Positions 12,275 to 29,200 of a stretch of 64,000 nt of DNA are shown one piece after another (the first letter of the stretch is position 1; the number at the start of each line of letters is the position of its first letter). This DNA is from Laccaria trichodermophora. Taxonomy: Eukaryota > Basidiomycota > Agaricomycetes > Agaricales > Hydnangiaceae. The stretch covers positions 868,001 through 932,000 of the forward strand of contig JACTVC010000008.1 of the NCBI GenBank assembly GCA_018417955.1, in the 5' to 3' direction. The position numbers and the translations under genes were made by a program. The notes under the pieces are model-generated. The model worked only from the letters and a program-made list of their open reading frames with translations, searched no databases and was not told where the DNA came from.

Positions 12275-12910
12275 GACCTAGTCCCGAGTCGAACGGGAAA
12301 CCTCTACCTGAAGCAATCGCCTTAGATTGCGTAGATGTGCAAGCCGTTACACCACTAGGTCGTTATTAGTAGCTGGAGAGGGCGGGTTAAAGTAGAGACC
12401 AGGTGAGGTAGAGGCAGCCGTTGAATGAGAAAAACATATAGCTACTCTTATGATGACCTAGTCCTGAATCGAACAGGCTCTTTGTCTGAATGAACCACGG
12501 TCCACAGCTCTGGAAAATTTCCAGGTGTGCGAGCCGTTACACCGCTAGGCCGTTATTCATAGCTGGTGAAAGTAGGGTGAAGGCGTGGTTGGATATAGAA
12601 ACCTTCGCCCAAAAAGATTTGGCGCACATTGCCATGACCTAGTCCTGAATCGAACAGAGTGTCCCTGGCTGAGGATTACATCCCTTACAGATTCTCCAGA
12701 TGTGCGAGCCGTTACACCCCTAGGCCGTTGTCCATAGCTGACGAAGGTCGGGTAAAGTCGAGATTAGGTGTAGGATCTGTCCGTAAAAAGGTTCTGCTTC
12801 CTTGTACGTACCCCACAATGACCTAGTCCCGAATCGAACAGGATCTCTCTGAGGCGATTTTTTCTTTTTCGAATATTCTCCAGACGTGCGCACCATTACA
12901 CTACTAGGTC
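12275..12910 (-). repeat. Array of four minus-strand tRNA-like units upstream of USP copy 1
   Basis: Units at 12275-12361, 12455-12551, 12636-12726 and 12820-12910. Each has a downstream T-tract (12242-12248, 12430-12434, 12611-12615 and 12785-12789 on the complement). The first and last have perfect GACCTAG/CTAGGTC stems; the middle two have GGCCTAG/CTAGGTC with a G-U pair. In the first, the T-stem is TCCCG/CGGGA rather than TCCTG/CAGGA, a compensated change. The array points away from the USP copy starting at 13246. Confidence 0.75.
12820..12910 (-). tRNA. tRNA-like unit
   Basis: Perfect 7-bp acceptor stem GACCTAG/CTAGGTC, B box GTTCGATTC, and a T5 tract about 31 nt downstream. Its insert contains a T-rich run opposite the usual CTTCAG-type segment. 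Confidence 0.5.
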
Positions 12911-13245
12911 GTATGATACCCCTCAATCGAGGCTGGGTAAGTCATGTAGCGTGGAGAGTTATTGAAGGCATCCGAGCGACGTGTTCCGAAGATGAATACG
13001 CCAGCTTCAAGAAGCTCTGACTCGGAGAGTAATCCTCGGGTGGTTGGCATCATCCCGACAAGTTACTGCGGTAGTTGTCCCGAAGCACAGCGGCCGCAGA
13101 GAATACTTGGCAGTTGAGGACATATGTGCTGTGGTGGCTCCGAGAACACGTGTCTAGTATAAACGCAGTCCCCGCAAACGGGCGTCAACACAACCGGCAA
13201 CCACTTTCTTCCACAACTCAATTCCCTTTCTCTTCCTCACCCTCA
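12911..13245 (+). promoter_or_regulatory. Shared spacer between array and USP copy 1
   Basis: This divergent intergenic segment recurs before every USP copy with a 5' end (also 25883-26215, 36548-36857, 42196-42539, 49785-50070 and 59165-59489). It contains a GCGGCCGC-type palindrome followed by an AGWGAATACTTGGCAG word. It is the likely promoter region of the USP gene because nothing else separates the two transcription units. No core promoter motif was pinned down. Confidence 0.45.
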
Positions 13246-14804
13246 ATGGCAAAGTCAAAGCCACTAACCGCACAAGAACTCTACAGACAGAGAAGACAAC
13301 GCGAAGAAGAGGAAAAGCTCGAATATCTACCCCCTGGGTTGATCAATCATGGGAATACGTGCTTTATGAACTCTGTGCTTCAAGGCGTGCGTTTCTCGCC
13401 TTAATCTTGCTTTCGGATGGTTTGCTTATCAGTTTCATATACTAGTTGATTGCTACACACCTCCTGAACGATCTGGTTCACTTTACGCCCATCCCACCAT
13501 CGGTCCAACGATTCTCTTCGACCCCTTTAGCCTCACGACGATCCCCGCAGCTCACGAATGGACATCATCTGAGCGAGGAATGGGATAAGCCCTGGGTGAA
13601 CAGCATGCCGATCGGAGATATGTTTTTGAGTCTGATGTACAAGTCATGGGAAGCACAGGCGCGCAGACAGAGGGAGGTTCTCAGCCCAAGGTATGTCTTC
13701 CTCACATTTCTTACCCGGAAGATCCGACATCAGTTTTTGTTTGATAGGTCGGTGCTCGGAACTCTTGGGCAGAAATACGATCAATACCTAGACTTTGCAC
13801 AGCAAGACGCGCACGAGTTTCTAAGGATAATACTAGACGCGATGCGCATGGAAGAACAAGACATCATCAAAAAGCGTCAACCGCCTCCCAAGAAACGACG
13901 TCGAACAACACTAACCCCCGCCGACCCAAATGTCCCACTCTCCCCCGCACCCCCGCCTTCACCCATAATAAACGAAGAAGACAAACTCATCTCATTCGTC
14001 GACATGATTTTCGGGGGTCAACTGACGAGTATACTCGTCTGCCAGAAATGTAAACACATTTCACAGACCTACGAAGATTTCAACGACATCAGTTTAAGCA
14101 TCAAACCGGAAGACTACGCGCATCGAAAACGAGATAGGTTCAAGAACTTTGCAAAGCGCTTTACGGCTTTTCCATCGTCAAATTCCGCAGCTAGTTCCAC
14201 CGCGAAGCCCCTTTCCACCGTCCAGCGACCGTCCTCTGTCCCCCCCGCTTCGACTTCCTTTCGCGAAGAGAGGGAGGTGCTGAGCGTAGAGACGCATGAT
14301 GATGCCACGCGGAGACGGAGTTTGGATCTACCAACGGAGAAAGGAGAAGATGCGGAGACGCCGTCCCCTGTGACGTCGAAAGAGGAGGAGGTGGATAGCG
14401 ATAACTCGCACGTCCTGGTGAACGCTACGGGTCCGGAGGATAAACATGTTGAGTTTGTGGATGTGCGGCGGGGGAAGAAGGACAAGGAGAAGGAAAAGAA
14501 GGAGGAGAAAAAGGAGGAAAAGAAGGAGAAGGAGAAGAAGGGGGACGATGGGTGGGCGAAGTTGGGGAGGAGGATCAGCCTTACGGTTGGTTTGGGGAAA
14601 CCTCGGGATAGGAAGAGTCGATCGATGGAGCGGATGGGGACGTTGGAGGATGAGGTGGTCGCTAGCACGACGAAGAGCACCATCACCTGGCCGTCGAGAT
14701 CCTTCCGAAATCCAGGTCTCACCGCCTTCTGCCAAACCCTCTTCCTCAACGACAACACCCAATACCAACCCTACCACAGCTGCCCCCCGCTTCCCCAACG
14801 TCTC
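13246..14804 (+). pseudogene. USP deubiquitinase copy 1, truncated
   Basis: Collinear with the intact gene. Exon 1 is 13246-13386 with the Cys box NHGNTCFMNSVLQ. Exon 2 is 13446-13690. Exon 3 starts at 13748 with QQDAHEF and the zinc CxxC. The sequence is nearly identical up to about 14690. There a deletion of about 35 nt relative to copy 2 shifts the frame, and all homology stops near 14805. The CRRCWK, HLKRF and His-box segments are missing, so the product could not be an active peptidase. Confidence 0.8.
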
Positions 14805-17361: not shown

Positions 17362-19144
17362 ATGGATTTTTCGTCATCCACCGCGCTCCTGCAAAACGCT
17401 ACCGGAACCATCATATCTGGCAGAGCACAGGTCATAAACGCCGGCGGCAATGTTGTTCTTCATAGCCCTTTGCATGCTGGAAGTACGTCAAAGTTTCAGA
17501 ATCCATCAATACCACTAATACAACTGATGGCACATAGGTCTAGCGAGCTTGCTTAGGCCTGTCAGTAATGCTACACATACTCGCTCAGGTCACGTCCCTC
17601 GATGTGATTCTGGAACTCGTTTGGCGGTGATTGCTCAGGTCCGGAAGTGGCTCGATGGCCATGATAATAATGGGCGAGCTGCTGTCTGCTGGCTTAATGG
17701 GCCAGCTGGCTATGGCAAATCAGCATTGGCACAGACCATTGCGGAGTGCTATGCGGCAGAGGGCCGCCTTTTAGGGAGCTTCTTCTTTTTGCGAGGGGCT
17801 GGTGAACGCAGCCATATATCTCGCCTGATTCCTACTCTTGCTCATCAGATTTCTCTCACTGTTCCTGGTGCAAAGCTGTCGATTGAAAGTGCTCTTGAGG
17901 ATGAGCCAGCCCTGCTTGGGTTGACTGTCTCTATGGCTTACCGACTTCAAAGACTTGTCATAGAGCCAATCCATCTCAACACTTCACAACTCTCCTATAG
18001 CTCTGTTGTTGTTATTGATGCTCTTGATGAATGTGATGATAAAGCTGAAATGGTGGACTTTATTGATGTTCTCCTCAGGGCATCTTCTGGGGGGGCTCAT
18101 CTTCCTTTCCAGATTCTCCTCACTAGCAGGGTAGAGGAACATATTCGAAAAAAGTTTGATAGTTTTGAAGCTCGTTTTTTACACCGTCTGGAGCTACAGA
18201 ATTATGATGCTCGTCCAGACATCAAAGTACATTTTCGGAGGGCATTTGATTCTATCTATGACCAAAATTGGCGAATCATGCAGAGAATACCAAAGCCCTG
18301 GCCATCAGCTCAAGATCTCACTTCACTTCTTGACAAGGCTGGCAGTTCATTTACATTTGCTACTACATTGGTCCAATGTGTTGGTGGAGATATCATGCCA
18401 CACAGAGCCTTGAAAAAACTTCTGGCATCAGAAGCTAATGGTCTAGATTCACTCTATGAACAGGTTCTCTCTTCTGCTTCTTGGACAGAAGACTTCTGTC
18501 AGATTCTTGGAACAATCATGGTTCTAACAGATAACAAATCTGTCGCCTTTCTCAGCTCTTTCCTCTCTCTTCAGCATGAGGAGGTCATTTGTGGGCTATT
18601 GCAAGTACAGTCCATTATTAAAATTCCTGGAGATGATGATAAGCCAATTATGCTCTATCACACATCTCTCTGGGATTTTTTGGCCATCCAATCACGATCA
18701 AAGCAATATTTTATTGATCCTTCTGTGCAACACATTCATCTAGCCATACTGTCTTTGCAGCATCTGGTAAAATATCCTTCAAAAGACTTTTTTGAGGGGG
18801 ATGTGGCCAAGTATGCATCCATTAATTGGCCACACCATATTCTTTTGGGATTTCAGGAGCAAGGATCAAATGTGGATGAAACAATTATGACTTCTTTGGT
18901 AACTCTCATTGAAAACTTACTGATTTTTCAGAGTAGAACATGGCATAATACTATGCTGAATTTGAGGTCTGATAAAAGGGAAGGGATGTTAAGCTGTGTG
19001 AAAGATGGAAAGATTTTGTTTCAGGTCAGCTATTGCAATTCTCTCAGATACTTATCATCTCTTAACATGTATAAGACATGGCAAGGGTCAATTATTACAA
19101 AGAATTTGATCAAGATATTTCAACAAGTCATTGATTTCTATGAA
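17362..19144 (+). CDS. NACHT NTPase (NLR-type), main exons
   Basis: Exon 1 is 17362-17482 (MDFSSSTALLQNATGT...). A 55-nt intron 17483-17537 (GTACGT...ATAG) joins in frame (HAG-S-LASLLRPVSN) to exon 2, 17538-19144. Together they give 576 codons. Walker A is GPAGYGKSA; Walker B is VVVIDALDECD, typical of NACHT domains, followed by SRVEE-type sensor and helical regions. Basidiomycete genomes carry many such STAND NTPases, thought to act in non-self recognition (family knowledge). There is no WD40, ankyrin or TPR repeat region. Instead, at the phase-0 boundary after IDFYE a GTAAGA donor (19145) opens the series of 3-nt exons. Without that splice the frame reads 12 more codons to a stop ending at 19183, so intron retention would give a 588-aa form. 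Confidence 0.8.
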
Positions 19145-22100
19145 GTAAGAGGTTATAATGGAGGTATCTTCAATAATTATTGAGATCTTCCAACAGACAG
19201 TAAGTAACAAGGCCATAATACTGGTCACAAGTTAATCTGTAAGGTTTATAGGAGGTATGTGGTAATAATCAGGTATCAAAATAAAATATTGACCTGTTTT
19301 ACAGAATGTAAGCCAAGACATAACAACATCTTATTGCTATTAATAAATTACAGGAAGTGAGTTATCAAGAGAAGAAGAGTTTCATTCTGATTGTTGTTTT
19401 TTCTTGCAGAATGTATGTCTAGAAATTGTTCAAGTTTTTATTTGTCCTCATGGTTGTCATTAGTTTGTGGGTCAATATTTTGCATCATATGTCACATCTT
19501 ATCAACATCTGTCTATTTCTTCCAGAATGTAAGTATTAACTGTTGATCTTGCCACTTATATAGCTAATGTTCTTGTTTATGAATTCAGAAGGTGATATAT
19601 GGTCTATTCACATTGTCTCTGTGTCAATATAAGAGATTTTTTTAGTGGGTAAGTTATTATCAAGTTTTCAAAATAACTGTGTTCTGACTCAATTCTCTTC
19701 TACACTTACCATTTCTTAGGCTGTGAGTTGTATCCCTATTAAATATCAACTCATATGCTGACTCATTATCTGGTTTTTCCCTTGATTGTGCACTGTTTTG
19801 GTAATGTGCTTTTCCCTATTTCAGAGTGTATGCTTTCTTGCATTTTATTTTACATGCCTCTAAAACATATGCTCTGGCCATTCTTTCACAGAAAGCAAGT
19901 TGGCCTGGTTTCTAATGTGGACTCTTCTGATGATAGAGACCTTGACCTGTCTTATTTCAGAAGGTGAGTCAGCCTAATTTTGATGCACACTCTTGTGGTG
20001 ACACTGACTGTGGCCTGTCTTGTTTCAGTCGGTGAGTTGGCCTGAGTTTGAATGTGCACTTTTCTGGTGACACCGACTGTGGCCTGGCTTGGTCTTAGGA
20101 GGCAAGTTGGCCTGGTTTTTTATATGCACTCTCCTGGTAACACTGATTGTGGTCTGTCTTGTTTCAGTCAGTGAGTTGGTCTGATTTTTAATGTGCACTC
20201 TTCTGATAATACTGATTGTGGCCTTTCTTGTTTCAGTGGGTGAGTTGGCCTGGTTTTCAATGTGCACTTTTCTTGTGAGACTGAATGTGGCCTGGCTTGT
20301 TTCAGTTGGTGAGTTGGCCTGGTTTTCAATGTGCATCTTCTCTTGACACTGATTGTGGCCTGTTTGTTTCAGTTGGTAGGTTTGCTTGGTTTTAATGTGT
20401 ACTCTTCTGATGACACTGACTGTGGCCTGTCTTATTTCAGGATGTGAGTTGGCCTGGTTTATAATGTGGAGTCCTCTGGTGACACCAACTGTGGCCTGTC
20501 TTGTTTTAGAAGGTGAGTTGGCCTGGTTTTTAATCTGCAATCTTCTGGTGAGACTGACTGTGGCCTGTTTTGTTTCAGGATGTGAGTTGGCCTGGTTTTT
20601 TACTGTGCACTCTTCTGTTTACACTGACTCTGGCTTGTCTTGTTTCAGTTTGTGAGTTGGCCTCATTTTTGATGGGCACTCTGCTGGGACACCCTGTCTT
20701 GTTTCAGTTTGTGAGTTGACCTCATTTTGATGGGCACTCTTCTGGTGACACTCTGGCCTGTTTTGTTTCAGTTTGTGAGTTGGCCTGTTTTTTAATGTTC
20801 ACTTTTCTAATGACACTCACTATGGCCTGTCTTGTTTCAGCATGTGAGTTGGCCTTGTTTTCAATGTGAACTCTTCTGGTCACACTGTTTGTGCCCTGTC
20901 TTGTTTCAGTTGGTGAGTTGGCCTTGTGAAGTCTTCTCCTGGTACTGATTGTGGCCTGGCTTGTTTCAGTTGGTGAGTTGGCCTCATTTTGATTTGCACT
21001 CTTCTGGTCAGACTGACTGTGACCTGTCTTGTTTCAGCATGTGAGTTTAATGTGGACTCTTCTGATGACGGACACTTTGACCTGTCTTGTTTCAGTCTGT
21101 GAGTTGGCCTTGTTTCCCATGTACACTCTTCTGGTGACACTAACTGTGGCCTGTCTTGTTTTAGTCAGTGAGTTTGCCTCATTTTTAGTGTTAACTCTTC
21201 TGGTGACATTAACTGTGGCCTGTCTTGGTTCAGGATGTGAGTTGGCCTGGTTTTTAATGTGTGCTCTTCTGGTCACACTTACTGTGGCCTATCTTGTTTC
21301 AGGCAGTGAGTTGGCCTCCTTTTAATGTGGTGCCACTGACTGTGGCCTGTTTTGTTTCAGGATGTGAGCTGGCCTGGTTTTTCTGTGCACTCTTCTTCTC
21401 ACACTGACTGTGGCCTGTCTTGTTTCAGAAGGTGAGCTGCCCTGATTTCAATGTCTACTCTTCTGGTGATGCTGGCTGTGGCTTGTCTTCTTTCAGAAGG
21501 CAAGTTGGCCTGGTTTGGAATGTGGACTCTGCTGGTAACACACATTTTGGTGCTTCTTTTTAGGGGGTGAGTTTCTTTGCTTTTGGCTATCAATTACTCT
21601 TGTCACACTATCTCTCTTTACCTTTCTTAGCATGTAAGTTACTTGTTTTGTACTGTACATGTTTCTTGCAACTCATTTTTGATATTTTCTTCTAGAAGGT
21701 GTGTTGCTTATATTGTCCTTATGATCTATTTTACTTAGTTGATTCTCACACTTACCATTTTCATATGTAGAAAGTATGTTGTCTCTTCTGCATATTTTGT
21801 AAGTTTCATTTCATAAGCCTTCATTTTTTAGTCTTATCTATTTATACATTATTATTTATTAGGTAATTAAAGCTCCAATCAATATCTCTCAAGGAGGTTA
21901 GTCAAGTTCAAGCACCTCATAGACCAATTTTATAAATCTCTTCACTTTCTTTTTTAGGATGTATGTTGCCCACTTACTCTCATTTTTATCCCCTGATATA
22001 TGTTTATTTTAACTCAGATTGTATGGTTTTATTTCCTGTTACAGAAGAATGCTCATGTTTTGTAGCTTGTATGTCTTTGATCTATTTCTAGATTTCTTTC

Positions 22101-22436
22101 AACCATTCCTTTTGTTAGAAAGTATGTATTCCTTCACATTATTTCACCAGGTCACTCATTTCAGATATGTAGTGGGCAAGTCAACTCCATTTTCTATCAT
22201 GTTAGAATCTTTGGTGTTATCAGAATCTCCCATTTTTAGAGGGTATGCTTTTTTTTTTTACTGTTACTGCTCACTCAATGTTCATCTTCAAAATATATAG
22301 AGAGATACAGAGCTATAGATTCTAATCAGCCTAGTTATTTGCAAAATGCCAAGCTTTGTATGTTTATTTATCTGTCCTATTTCTTCTTTATTATATCCAT
22401 TCTTCCTAGTGGTTGATACATCCCCTATACCAATGA
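19145..22436 (+). CDS. Ladder of about 47 single-codon (3-nt) exons extending the NACHT frame
   Basis: Acceptor-NNN-donor sites, start of each triplet: ACA 19197, GAG 19252, AAT 19305, GAA 19354, AAT 19410, TTT 19464, AAT 19526, AAG 19589, TGG 19646, GCT 19720, AGT 19825, AAA 19892, AAG 19961, TCG 20029, GAG 20099, TCA 20168, TGG 20237, TTG 20306, TTG 20373, GAT 20441, AAG 20510, GAT 20579, TTT 20649, TTT 20708, TTT 20772, CAT 20841, TTG 20910, TTG 20970, CAT 21038, TCT 21096, TCA 21165, GAT 21234, GCA 21303, GAT 21361, AAG 21429, AAG 21497, GGG 21564, CAT 21631, AAG 21696, AAA 21771, GAG 21894 (weak), GAT 21958, ATT 22018, CTT 22066, AAA 22119, TGG 22173, AGG 22240. Donors are mostly GTGAGT, GTAAGT or GTATGT; four are GCAAGT (19895, 20102, 21500, 22176). 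Acceptors are mostly TTTCAG. Introns run 45-120 nt, mostly 64-67. Many carry a CTRAY branch site about 20 nt before AG. No triplet is a stop. A plausible end is a 13-codon exon 22319-22357, an intron to 22409 and 8 codons to TGA at 22434-22436. Using the acceptor at 22329 instead ends at 22525. Transcript evidence is lacking. Confidence 0.6.
19964..21563 (+). repeat. Homogeneous core of about 69-bp tandem units
   Basis: Units share GTGAGTTGGCCTGG...CTGAYTGTGGCC...TTGTTTCAG, and the most frequent spacing is 69 bp (66-nt intron plus a triplet). Indels change intron length (55-67 nt) but never the 3-nt gap between AG and GT. The triplets differ between otherwise near-identical units. Units outside the core keep the splice signals with little other similarity. 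Confidence 0.85.
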
Positions 22437-22525: not shown

Positions 22526-23800
22526 GGTGTATGTAGATGAAGTACTCATTGCTAATACTACCAATCTACAGCATGTGGACTGATCATTACTTACTGTCTG
22601 TTGGAAAATCTTGATGAATCAGTGAAGATATCCTAAATATTCCCACTACATTAGTAGTGGGTTTTGTGGGCCAGCCAAACTAGGAAACTTTGCTCATGTG
22701 GATAGTCATGTGTCAGTAAAGTCACATGATCATCCTCCTTTCCTTGTGAGTTGCTGTGAGCAACTTTGATCTCTCTTGCTTTCATAAAATAAATTTACAG
22801 TTTATCTATTTGTATGGAGAGTCTGTGTCTATCGCTGTGAGAAATCTGTGTTGTTTTAGTGGTCTGTAGAATATCATACAGTATACACAGACCTGTCAAC
22901 GACTTTGGGAATGTAGGTGTTGTTTCCATCACAAGCAATTCTTTATTGGCCTTGATTATTAAGAAAGCACCTAAGCACTTGCTGTATTGACTTTTTATTT
23001 TCAATTTGTGAATATTTTATAGGGGGGAAATCTCCAGTCTGATTGCCAGGTGATGAGCAGTGGCCCCCTTGCGATTTGGCACCAATGGAGCTCTTGAAGA
23101 GAAGCAAAAATAAAAGGATCAAATTGAGAATAACATGAGATGTATGTACCAAAGGCTGAGTGACAAGCAGCATTATTCAATGTATGTAACATTATCATAA
23201 GAATAACCAGATTCAACATAAAACAAAACCAAGTCAACCAACAATCAAAATAGGGTGTAGTGGGCCATGTGGCTTGCTGCCCTACATCTTTAAAATATAA
23301 ACTCTTATTTTGCCCACAATGTTGGTGAGGAGGCACATGATCCATCCTTGGCATGTGCCATATGGATGATGTGGCCATGTGGAAAATATGGAGTGTCCTG
23401 AGGTCTTTTCTCTCCTCCATGAGTTCCTATTCTGCTAGATTCCAAGTGGAAAGTTGGAATTTTAATGGAAAGCAATTGGCTGGAGCATCAGCTATTTTGA
23501 TTTCCAATTCCATGGAAATTCCCACTTTTTCTGAGGAATTTCAACAGAAATGGTTAGATTCTGGAACTTGCCAGGAATTACATTTGACAGAATCTATGAA
23601 ATTCCATTGGAATGCCATGGGAAGCAGCAGAACTGCACTGTCAAAAATAATGTTATTGGCAAGAATTGAATGTTAATGAATGGAGAAGGGTTGAAGGAAT
23701 CCCAAGGCTGAAGATGTTCCTGGTGAGTAGTTCTGAATTTGTATTGATATTGCTTTGGCCATTCCCACAGGCTCTGCTGAGAGTCAGACTGCTTTATTTC
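22526..23800. other. CpG-poor non-coding stretch
   Basis: Very few CG dinucleotides; A/T-rich. Around 23430-23640 there are repeated and inverted words of the type GGAATTTC/GAAATTCC and CCATGG, suggesting a small palindromic element. No gene is supported. Confidence 0.35.
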
Positions 23801-25263: not shown

Positions 25264-25882
25264 GACACAGTCCTGAATCAAACAGGGATCCTCTGGTCAG
25301 AGGAGCTTCCTAGCCTACAGAGGATGTGCCTCTGCCACTACTAAAACCCTAGCAATTGGGCAAAGCTGATGTAGGGCTTTGGACTACAACCAGTTGAGTG
25401 TGGAGGCTGCTCAGGAAATTTCCATAGGGCAGGGGCCTGATTTTGAAGCTCCTTATGCCTAGTGGAGTTGCATATCCTCCAGATGTGTGAGCTGTTACAC
25501 CACTAGGTTGTTATCGGTAGCTGGAGAAGGCCAGTTGAAGTAGAGACCAGGGGAGGTGGAGGCAAGCTGTTGAATGAGGAAAAAACATTCAAGTTGCCAG
25601 TCTCAGAATGGCATGATGCAAGTGACCTAGTCCTGAATCGAACAGAGTGTCTCTGGCTGAAGATTACATCCCTCAATTTACAGACTCTCCAGATGTGTAA
25701 GCCTTTACACCACTAGGCCGTTGTCTATGGCTCACGAAGATTGGGTAAAGTCGAGATTAGGTGTAGGATTTGTCCGTAAAAGGATTGGCACACTGGTGAC
25801 ACATTTACGACCTAGTCCCGAATCGAACAGGATCTCTGGCTGAAGTCAGCATATTTTTTAATATTCTCCAGATAAGCGCACG
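25264..25882 (-). repeat. Minus-strand tRNA-like array upstream of the intact USP gene
   Basis: A CpG-decayed unit begins at 25264 (TCGAAC changed to TCAAAC). A 5' half unit lies at about 25470-25510. A full unit lies at 25624-25719. A unit with its 5' end deleted lies at 25809-25882. The boundary near 25470 marks where CpG-poor DNA gives way to the block shared with 10-13 kb. Confidence 0.65.
25624..25719 (-). tRNA. tRNA-like unit
   Basis: Acceptor arms GGCCTAG/CTAGGTC (one G-U) with B box GTTCGATTC; the T-stem has a mismatch. A T6 tract lies about 39 nt downstream (25580-25585 on the complement). Confidence 0.45.
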
Positions 25883-26215
25883 TCGTATAATACCCTTTAA
25901 ACGAGGCTGGGTAAGTCATGTGGCAAGGCATCCGAGCGACGTTCAGGCCCAGTAGATCAGAGAAGGATACGCCGGCATCAAGAAGCTCTGACTAGAGTAA
26001 TCCTCGAGTAGTAGACGCATTATCCCGACGTGTTGCTGCGGTAGTCGTCATGAAGCACAGCGGCCGCAGAGAATACTTGGCAGCAGTTGAGGATATGAGC
26101 TTGGTGGCTGCGAGAACACGTGTCTAGTATAAACGCAGTCCTCGCAAACGGGCGTCAACACAACCGGCAACCACTTTCTTCCACAACTCAATTCCCTTTC
26201 TCTTCTTCACTCCCA
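25883..26215 (+). promoter_or_regulatory. Spacer / likely promoter of the intact USP gene
   Basis: Nearly identical to 12911-13245, with the AGCACAGCGGCCGC palindrome near 26055 and a C/T-rich run just before the start codon at 26216. An upstream in-frame ATG at 26120 exists in this copy, but 26216 (MAKSK) is conserved as an ATG in the copies that keep this end. Confidence 0.45.
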
Positions 26216-29200
26216 ATGGCAAAGTCAAAGCCACTAACTGCACAAGAACTCTACAGACAGAGAAGACAACGCGAAGAAGAGGAAAAGTTCGCATATCTAC
26301 CCCCTGGGTTGATCAATCATGGTAATACGTGCTTTATGAACTCTGTGCTTCAAGGCGTGCGTTTCTCGCCTTAATCTTGCTTTCGGATGTCTTACTTATC
26401 GCTTTCATATACTAGTTGATTGCTACACACCTCCTGAACGATCTGGTTCACTTTACGCCCATCCCACCATCGGTTCAACGATTCTCTTCGACCCCTTTAG
26501 CCTCACGACGATCCCCGCAGCTCACGAATGGACATCACCTGAGCGAGGAATGGGATAAGCCCTGGGTTAACAGCATGCCGATCGGAGATATGTTTTTGAG
26601 TCTGATGTACAAGTCATGGGAAGCACAGGCGCGCAGACAGAGGGAGGTTCTCAGCCCAAGGTATGTCTTCCTCACATTTCTTACCCGGGAGATCTGACAT
26701 CAGTTTTTATTCGAAGGTCGGTGCTTGGAACTCTCGGGCAGAAATACGATCAATACCTAGACTTTGCACAGCAAGACGCGCACGAGTTTCTAAGGATATT
26801 ACTAGACGCGATGCGAATGGAAGAACAAGACATTATCAAAAAGCGTCAACCGCCTCCTAAGAAACGACGTCGAACAACACTAACTCCCGCCGACCCAAAT
26901 GCGCCACTCTCCCCCGCACCCCCGCCTTCACCCATACTAAACGAAGAAGACAAACTCATCTCATTCGTCGACATGATTTTCGGGGGCCAACTGACGAGTA
27001 TACTCATCTGCCAGAAATGTAAACACATTTCACAGACCTACGAAGATTTCAACGACATCAGTTTAAGCATCAAACCGGAGGACTACGCGCATCGAAAACG
27101 AGACAGGTTAAAGAACTTTGCAAAGCGTTTTACGACTTTTCCATCGTCAAGTTCCGCAGCTAGTTCCACCGCGAAGCCCCTTTCCACCGTCCAGCGACCG
27201 TCCTCTGTCCCCCCCAGTTCGACTGCCTTTCGCGAAGAGAGGGAGGTGCTGAACGTAGAGACGCACGATGATGCTACGCGGAGACGGAGCTTGGATCTAC
27301 CAACGGAGAAAGGAGAAGATGCGGAGACGCCGTCCCCTGTGACGTCGAAAGAGGAGGAGGTGGATAGTGATAACTCGCACGTCCTGGTGAACGCTACTGG
27401 TCCGGAGGATAAACATGTTGAGTTTGTGGATGTGCGGCGGGGGAAGAAGGACAAGGAGAAGGAAAAGAAGGAGGAGAAAAAGGAGGAAAAGAAGGAGAAG
27501 GAGAAGAAGGGGGACGATGGGTGGGCGAAGTTGGGGAGGAGGATCAGCCTCACGGTTGGTCTGGGGAAACCTCGGGATAGGAAGAGTCGATCGATGGAAC
27601 GGATGGGGACGTTGGAGGATGAGGCGGTTACTAACCCGACGAAGAGCACCCCCAGCTGGCCATCGACGTATGCCCTCTCTTCCTTGACTTCCAAGACGGA
27701 GTCTTCACCACCTGAAATTCAAGTCTCACCGCCCTCTGCTAAACCGTCGTCCTCAACAATAACACCTAATACCAACCCCACAACAACTGCTCCCCGCTTC
27801 CCCAACGTCCAACGAAGCAAGTCGCCCAAACCACCTAAACCAACCGCAGCAGAGACAGAGTACCTCCGCAAAATTCTCGCGGACGTTGGGGCAGGCCCAC
27901 CAAATCCATTCAACGCCCTGTTCAAACCTATCCCGCACCCTCATCTGCACCACCACCACCACCACCATCACGCAGGGCCAGGCATCGGCACAGGTGCTGG
28001 TGGCGGTCGATCAGCATCCATCGGAGGAGGAGGAGGAAGATCGGTATCGACGGGCGGTGGACCGGGCGGTTCTGGTTCTGCACAGGGTGTATGGTTGGGG
28101 ATGAGCCAGTTTAGTGGGATCGAGGATTGTTTGAGGATGTTCACGGCTGTGGAGGTGTTGGATGGGGAGAATATGGTTGGGTGTCGGAGGTGTTGGAAAA
28201 TTGCGAATGGGGTGGATGTGAAGGGGAATGGGTTGAGGGATGGGGAAGAGGACGAGGAGTCGGGTGATGAGGGGGGCGGGAGTGGGCAGGTCGAGAAGGA
28301 GGTGGTGGTGCAGCAGCAGGTGGAGGAAAAGAAGGTGGAGGAAACGAAGGTTAATGTGCTGGAAGATCCGACGACGGTTCAGCAGAAACGTACGCTCAAA
28401 CACGCTCTTCCTCCGCTGTCCCCTCCACCCGTACACATACCAACATCCATGTCCACGCCCACGATGATGTTCTACAAACATCTGAACACGAGTGCGGTAG
28501 AAAGCCAGCGTTCGATATCATCCCTTCCTATCACGACGGATGACGTGGCGTCTTCGACAGATGATGCCATGACTTCGACGGATGATACCACGGACCTCGG
28601 TTCTTCGGCTGCTACGAGCGTAGAGTATCTCGAGTTGAAGAGCGAAGAGTCACTTGGACCGGGTGGGATGCCCATTCCTTCAATTCAGACGACCGCGCCG
28701 CTCGATGGGACGACAGGATTAATATCGCCTCCAGACGCACTCACCCGCTCATCATCAACTTCTTCTGCTTATTCTACCGGAACATTGCCCACCAGCAACG
28801 GCCCGCTGAGCAACGCCAATGGTATCGTCGTCGCTCCTAGCCCACGGATTGGCTCGATATACCAGAATCAAACTATTGCTAGCTCAGGGTCGTTACCTAT
28901 CCCACCAATGCAGAGGCATCATAACAGGCGCAAGGACACGTTCAACAATGCCACGGACGAAGATGATAGTTCTGGGAGTGGTGATGAGAGCGAGGGTTCT
29001 GTGTCCGGCGACTCGTTCATCTCACCTGGCTCGACGCCACCTGAAGCAATGGGGTCGCGTCAACAGCTCACTGCATCCACCAGTTCAAATTTATCGCCTT
29101 CACCGCCTAATACCACAACCCAACCCGCACCCACAACAACAACAACGAAAAAACTCCCTCGGCCGCCTAAACCAGTGATAATGCGACCTGCGTACAAACG

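Follow-up and report, generated by a model that had tools for sequence, protein, structure and literature searches.

What becomes of a reading frame that runs into a long series of putative exons, each only one codon long? A locus in Laccaria trichodermophora (assembly GCA_018417955.1; 59 Mb, 77 contigs) raises this question, located in a stretch of 64,000 nt on contig JACTVC010000008.1 (C76:868001-932000 in our numbering), which we refer to as the window and whose positions are used throughout. Here a predicted gene for a NACHT protein on the + strand runs into a ladder of 47 predicted 3-nt exons (19197..22242), the joined triplets of which read TENENFNKWASKKSESWLLDKDFFFHLLHSSDADKKGHKKEDILKWR. 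We consider it probable that this is a gene of the NOD-like receptor (NLR) type with a C-terminal tail predicted to be encoded by one codon per exon over 47 exons, the tail likely being a variable sensor in which residues would be gained, lost and exchanged through recombination between similar introns.

To delimit the ladder we searched for chains of units on the basis of acceptor and donor scores, allowing introns of 38-140 nt. The search returned exactly 47 AG-NNN-GT/GC units separated by introns of 45-120 nt, with the first triplet at 19197-19199 and the last at 22240-22242, and thus reproduced the count of about 47 units and the variable intron lengths given in an initial annotation made from the letters of the window. 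A chance origin of the 3-nt spacing could be rejected, as the longest chain in 300 dinucleotide shuffles of 19145-22436 did not exceed 4 units; the remainder of the window yielded chains of at most 3 units on either strand. With other spacings (0-15 nt, 3 excluded) the longest chain inside the ladder had 2 units, except for one of 22 units at spacing 7, which was discarded as a signal, being a shadow within the same repeats (GTGAG-TTG-GC). We also rejected the possibility that the repeats are coding in an unspliced frame, since the ladder contains no stop-to-stop frame of 200 codons on either strand and the unit spacing varies.

The ladder begins with a conserved 5' part (19197..19648, TENENFNKW), whose introns lie outside the tandem array and can be aligned between paralogues, continues with an expandable central part (19892..21563) of ~69-nt units, each made up of an intron and a variable triplet and contributing the hypervariable codons, and ends with a 3' part (21564..22242, GHKKEDILKWR) that alignment of the loci identifies as conserved. 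About 24 of the central units form a single 69-nt tandem array (Tandem Repeats Finder, 19898-21541, 24.6 copies). The units flanking this array on both sides keep the 3-nt spacing, confirming the earlier observation that the spacing persists where no other sequence is shared.

The genome contains at least 20 such ladders including that of the window, the other 19 having 24-103 units and each being located behind a NACHT gene. The central repeat matches 16 loci (window included), all of which carry ladders of 26-103 units, those of L011 and L021 each consisting of two chains, and all 27 DNA matches of the repeat, a lower bound, fall within these loci. More distant ladders were found in L024 (NACHT identity 56%; pieces of 9, 9 and 6 units), in L025 (49%; 30 units), and on contig C9 behind NACHT regions of ~30% identity, where L038 has 25 units and L042 has 17 + 8 units including one false node. 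The C9 ladders (L038:546-2204 and L042) are conserved and unexpanded, with a single exon of 18 nt (GTSFPK) interspersed between those of 3 nt, and possess a longer terminal exon, beginning RKQLQTERERLKRLEPP; a DNA search revealed no copies of this family beyond these two. Altogether 37 NACHT loci were examined, window included: 20 have a ladder and 15 have none at strict settings, 8 of the latter (L035-L037, L039-L041, L043, L044) being covered only as ~2.6-3.2 kb slices behind the NACHT match, and the remaining two are a degraded copy with 3 units (L029) and a fragment (L030). A loose chain of 6 units in L036 was judged to be due to chance, its sites being poor. At least 150 NPHP3_N matches are present in the genome, so that the ladder count is a lower bound; many of them have open frames of ~500-550 codons, and as the 3' ends of many lie outside the loci examined, further ladders may be hidden there. 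C76 (1.57 Mb) alone carries nine of the 18 family-A ladders, that of the window among them, distributed across ~0.8 Mb.

Splice signals were counted in 661 ladder introns of up to 85 nt from 18 loci; many of these introns are copies of one repeat and are therefore not independent. The donor is GTGAGT, GTAAGT or GTATGT in 479 of the 661 introns and GCAAGT in 21, and 647 end with CAG or TAG, a composition that is partly imposed by the chain search. The branch motif is not imposed in this way: CTRAY is located 8-45 nt ahead of the 3' splice site in 236 introns versus a mean of 87 after per-intron shuffling, in agreement with the branch sites that had been noted in many introns. The 120-nt intron at 21774-21893, near the 3' end of the ladder, holds TATTAG-GTAATT, i.e. 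an acceptor directly abutting a donor, and in our reading of the alignment 12 of 18 loci have CAG/TAG-GTAAT at this site, the others having ATGATT, ATAATA or a deletion. Is this element a zero-length exon or a recursive splice point?

If the triplets are exons they should behave as codons. The donor after 19144 lies in phase 0 and none of the 47 triplets is a stop, both as initially described. Among all 718 triplets of the 18 loci (a set without L038 and L042) there is likewise no stop, versus 52.7 expected from position-specific composition, and reading the joined triplets in the two shifted frames gives 27 and 109 stops of 700. Two apparent TAA triplets turned out to be false nodes: that in L023 precedes the conserved first triplet and was removed before the 718 were counted, and that in L042 overlaps the donor of the conserved 18-nt exon. 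Tail columns were evaluated in 15 of the 18 loci (L017, L021 and L024 being excluded for broken chains), and E2, W9, I(-5) and W(-2) show no variation in any of the 15, L025 included. The most common start of the joined peptides is TENENF.KW and the most common finish KE.ILKWR, and changes in other columns often keep the character of the residue, e.g. F/L/W/Y in column 6 and A/T/I/V/L in column 10. The intron cores of the window and L025 are 0.56 identical, random AT-rich sequence giving 0.62 by the same measure, and the tail ends of the two keep 19/27 and 18/24 triplet bases and 4/9 and 4/8 residues. Between L038 and L042, 73/75 triplet bases are identical and the intron cores are 0.855 identical.

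The idea that the single-codon exons continue the NACHT frame is thus strengthened by 20 ladders with constant spacing, the lack of stops, conserved ends and an open model of 611 residues, and it stands as a prediction from sequence. These data also bear on a non-coding explanation, according to which the ladder is a minisatellite of splice-like motifs that serves as decoy or regulatory array and is skipped as one large intron. Its central part is indeed a tandem repeat, and ladders are free of stops even where exon 2 is broken; however, the complete lack of stops, tail ends that are conserved across unrelated introns and a 3-nt gap that is constant without shared intron sequence render this explanation very improbable.

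Database proteins were inspected for traces of the tail. A continuous version was not found, none of 5 candidates reaching E <= 10, and the tail is missing from all 15 database relatives examined of 349 found. The closest named relatives of the NACHT protein are hypothetical proteins of Laccaria amethystina, with 81% identity at best. One L. amethystina protein, P0060, ends with DFCE-TVSN..., the letters expected if exon 3 and the first triplet ACA were translated and the next donor were read through. An environmental protein, P0078, has TVSN and, further on, NRRYVVI, consistent with units 1 and 2 being read through. These protein letters are a hint that the ladder layout might also lie behind these two relatives.

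The strongest signal, absent from the initial annotation, is that the central triplets are hypervariable amid introns that are much more alike. The conserved ladder ends enclose 4 to 81 units (2 in L024, whose chain is fragmentary), and in expanded arrays most of them carry a copy of a single intron, 66 nt in length (60 nt in L014). In the central units of nine arrays the nucleotide diversity π of the triplets is 0.63-0.73 versus intron means of 0.02-0.19, with eight of the nine arrays showing a difference of 2-13% between their introns (2% in L009). In a separate test of 13 arrays with at least four 66-nt units near the consensus, in which the introns of L018 differ by 16%, no 3-nt intron window is as diverse as the triplet in 13/13 arrays. 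About two of three triplet sites differ, which is near saturation, and the difference is as great within arrays as between them; no clear linkage of the triplet to the intron variant was detected. The number of codon types is 7 each in L009, L010, L014 and L015 (16 to 27 units counted), 10 in the 27 units of L013 and 16 in the 45 units of L012. L015 and L017 differ by 2.0% in exon 2 and show identities of 96.9% for the NACHT region and 97.6% for the 3' part and downstream; their central peptides are SSWGDDARWARAFFGG and RGFDW, respectively. Because the middle triplets diverge far more between copies than the surrounding introns do, a role of the tail as rapidly changing sensor is likely.

Such a pattern might also arise from a dedicated process that mutates the triplets, i.e. 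a targeted mutator similar to diversity-generating retroelements, and near-saturated triplets next to introns differing by 2% in L009 would fit. The small number of codon types in several arrays, however, is expected from reshuffling instead of fresh mutation, and the ladder ends are conserved (no search for a mutator enzyme or template was made); we regard a mutator as extremely unlikely. Alternatively, the introns could be young and the triplets old, with mobile introns, either introner-like or reverse-spliced, having been inserted or replaced between the codons of an older continuous tail. In the distant paralogues L009 and L012 the introns resemble each other more than the exons do, the central introns differing by 12.7% while the NACHT exons are 85% and 65% identical to that of the window at the protein level, which is compatible with mobility, as are intron variants without clear link to the triplets. 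On the other hand, every DNA match of the central repeat, a lower bound, lies in a ladder locus, strict one-codon spacing is not expected from random insertion, and the continuous tail was not found among the database candidates. In addition, the introns between the 30 single-codon exons of L025 are visibly unlike one another, so that the ladder layout looks older than the repeat. Taken together, an origin by intron insertion appears improbable.

A further possibility accepts real 3-nt exons and ascribes the diversity mainly to alternative splicing, with a different subset being included in each transcript as reported for Tuber (PMC3689799, PMC9815663). Any subset of triplets would stay open because the chain exons are all 3 nt long and none is a stop. 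Nevertheless, the central triplets differ between gene copies already in the DNA, a difference not required by optional splicing alone, and the conserved tail ends suggest constant inclusion there. We therefore view alternative splicing as the main source of diversity as possible but rather unlikely.

In the reading that we favor, a tail encoded codon by codon and diversified via its introns, each triplet would be spliced in with the introns being removed sequentially, one by one, a sequence of events we presume because simultaneous occupation of splice sites separated by just 3 nt is hardly feasible. The joined codons would then be translated as C-terminal protein tail. By a crossover within any intron, whole codons would be gained, lost or swapped, amounting to codon-by-codon exon shuffling, and frame as well as splice sites would survive the exchange since each unit is one phase-0 codon and the introns are alike. 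Concerted exchange may homogenise the introns while selection keeps or favors codon variety, and the variable middle might meet a non-self ligand, as is thought for the hypervariable codons of Podospora NWD genes.

Several observations weigh against this reading. Its likely sensor role is based on analogy. At 19%, the central introns of the window itself differ by more than a few percent, and those of the distant copies L009, L010, L012 and L013 differ by 12-14% between copies (closer pair L009-L010 excluded), a homogeneity that could reflect intron mobility or constraint instead. L015 and L017 are only 89% identical over their first six units, pointing to a mosaic history, and L017, having a stop in exon 2, is possibly no longer active. 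Adjacent identical triplets number 33 versus 26.7 expected, and 232/2000 shuffles reach 33; without a clear excess the unit-exchange step is not directly visible, and simple tandem duplication of units, of which little trace is left, was rejected as the source of the triplets. Both triplet differences between L038 and L042 are amino-acid changes. According to tblastn, exon 2 is interrupted by a stop or a frame break in 10/18 family-A copies, and the ladders of these copies are still free of stops, reflecting either recent death of these genes or a constraint other than translation. The codon set is narrow, with 38/64 codons used, one third-position C in 718 and no Cys, from which we conclude that splicing, through the pairing of splice sites, probably shapes the triplets too. 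Finally, several ladders (L011, L017, L018, L021, L024) contain single damaged units with lost acceptors or donors, some of which leave AG-GT without a triplet.

The gene model around the ladder was assembled from open reading frames, splice sites and alignments, and all exons joined give one open frame of 611 residues. Predicted exon 1 (17362..17482) encodes 40 residues including TIISGRAQVINAGGNVVLH, is followed by a GT-AG intron (17483-17537) and has a counterpart in 13/15 other loci searched. Our impression is that TIISGRAQVINAGGNVVLH may be a short N-terminal amyloid-type signalling motif, and NLRs with amyloid-type N-terminal motifs have been reported from agaricomycetes (PMC9815663). Exon 2 (17538..19024), matched in 15/15 other loci searched plus further loci, comprises the NPHP3_N/NACHT P-loop NTPase region, identified by Pfam on the full model (PF24883, E 1.1e-24; PF05729, E 3.8e-8; NACHT and NPHP3_N both above the curated cut-offs), and the predicted protein contains a Walker A-like GPAGYGKSA. 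It thus has the NACHT/NPHP3_N nucleotide-binding domain by which fungal NLRs of the NACHT type, a class of signal transduction ATPases with numerous domains (STAND), are recognized. NCBIfam gave weak matches alone on exon 2, all below cut-off, and ANK, TPR, WD, WD40 and HET had no Pfam match on the predicted 611-residue model, which in this respect differs from fungal NLRs with C-terminal ANK, TPR or WD repeats. A 51-nt intron (19025-19075) with a branch-like site CTTAAC and the end TATAAG, predicted by alignment, very likely interrupts the coding part ahead of the ladder; its junction (FQ-TSQGS) is also used in the annotated protein P0060. Predicted exon 3 (19076..19144) encodes TWQGSIITKNLIKIFQQVIDFYE and ends in phase 0 ahead of the ladder, which is followed by a predicted terminal exon (22301..22318) with the five codons RDTEL and the stop TAG. 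In our reading of the alignment 13/16 loci have an in-frame stop 5-9 codons past the aligned terminal acceptor, the others being L021, L022 and L023.

Rearranged copies of parts of this region are found nearby. At 22587-22630, ~270 nt past the terminal exon, the first ladder junction (19165-19207) recurs in inverted orientation with 86% identity over 44 nt, and the 3' flanks of six paralogues on C76 (L009, L010, L015, L017, L020, L022) contain a ~220-nt inverted piece of the region from exon 2 via exon 3 to the first triplet. The NACHT gene is flanked on both sides by a duplicated segment overlapping a ubiquitin-specific-protease gene (12635-14802 and 25623-27809, 89% identity), many more diverged pieces of which are scattered across the window.

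If spliced as predicted, these genes have the most extreme exon layout known to us, with up to 103 predicted 3-nt exons per gene, and a ladder tail that is hidden from annotation. They make it possible to test how the spliceosome copes with dozens of exons that are too short for binding on both sides, and by what means variable recognition sites arise in fungi. More tentatively, and with somewhat more doubt than conviction, we propose that a recognition peptide of a few to ~80 variable residues is edited genomically per amino acid, near-identical introns serving as recombination handles between single codons, that lineages thereby gain, lose and reorder residues with frame and splicing intact and acquire a rapidly evolving receptor repertoire, and that this solution was reached in Basidiomycota as well as in truffles. 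The pairing of NACHT genes with codon-sized exons in both truffles and Laccaria points either to repeated invention or to a far wider phenomenon that has escaped annotation. A search of the full-text literature, in which subscription papers are mostly not included, returned no report of a basidiomycete ladder of this sort or of hypervariable codons in homogenised introns. As far as this search went, the basidiomycete host, the lack of ankyrin repeats and the hypervariable codons in homogenised introns are new.

How does the ladder compare with known systems? Schistosome micro-exon genes also have serial short exons, in multiples of 3 nt, but these are longer and encode variable secreted proteins without NACHT. 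A single microexon has been described in Trichoderma (PMC11121469). Introner-like elements of fungi are spliceosomal introns present within a genome in many, highly similar copies (PMC4457414). Ladder introns, in contrast, are arranged in tandem with one-codon spacing and belong to one gene family, the 27/27 matches in ladder loci (again a lower bound) differing from near-identical introns scattered over unrelated genes. Highly alike repeats that are themselves coding are exemplified by the WD40 unit of ~42 residues. In the Podospora NWD/HNWD genes (het-d, het-e, het-r; NACHT + WD40) very similar repeats undergo concerted evolution and vary in number, with a few hypervariable positions of the WD repeats being under diversifying selection (PMC4986451). 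The gene with the ladder shares with them a NACHT domain. A pattern of highly alike tandem units with hypervariable codons is seen in the ladder too, but here the repeat is the intron, not a protein repeat, and only one codon per unit would be coding; WD40 and HET are unmatched, and predicted exon 1 has just 40 residues. The closest parallel is provided by the NACHT-ANK genes of Tuber melanosporum, for which several accounts, crediting Iotti et al. 2012, mention many 3-bp microexons ('tens', 'dozens') that are alternatively spliced (PMC3689799, PMC4986451, PMC10197012, PMC9815663). The statement in the initial annotation that no gene with dozens of serial 3-nt exons had been described is therefore superseded, and going by these passages NACHT genes with codon-sized exons are already known as a kind. 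Both systems combine NACHT, tens to dozens of 3-bp exons and a C-terminal recognition part, with exons and their splicing being predicted at the sequence level in Laccaria and alternative splicing being reported for Tuber. The Tuber genes are ascomycete genes with ankyrin repeats, whereas the Laccaria gene is from a basidiomycete and has no ANK match, and the homogenised introns with hypervariable codons seen here are not mentioned in the passages on Tuber cited above.

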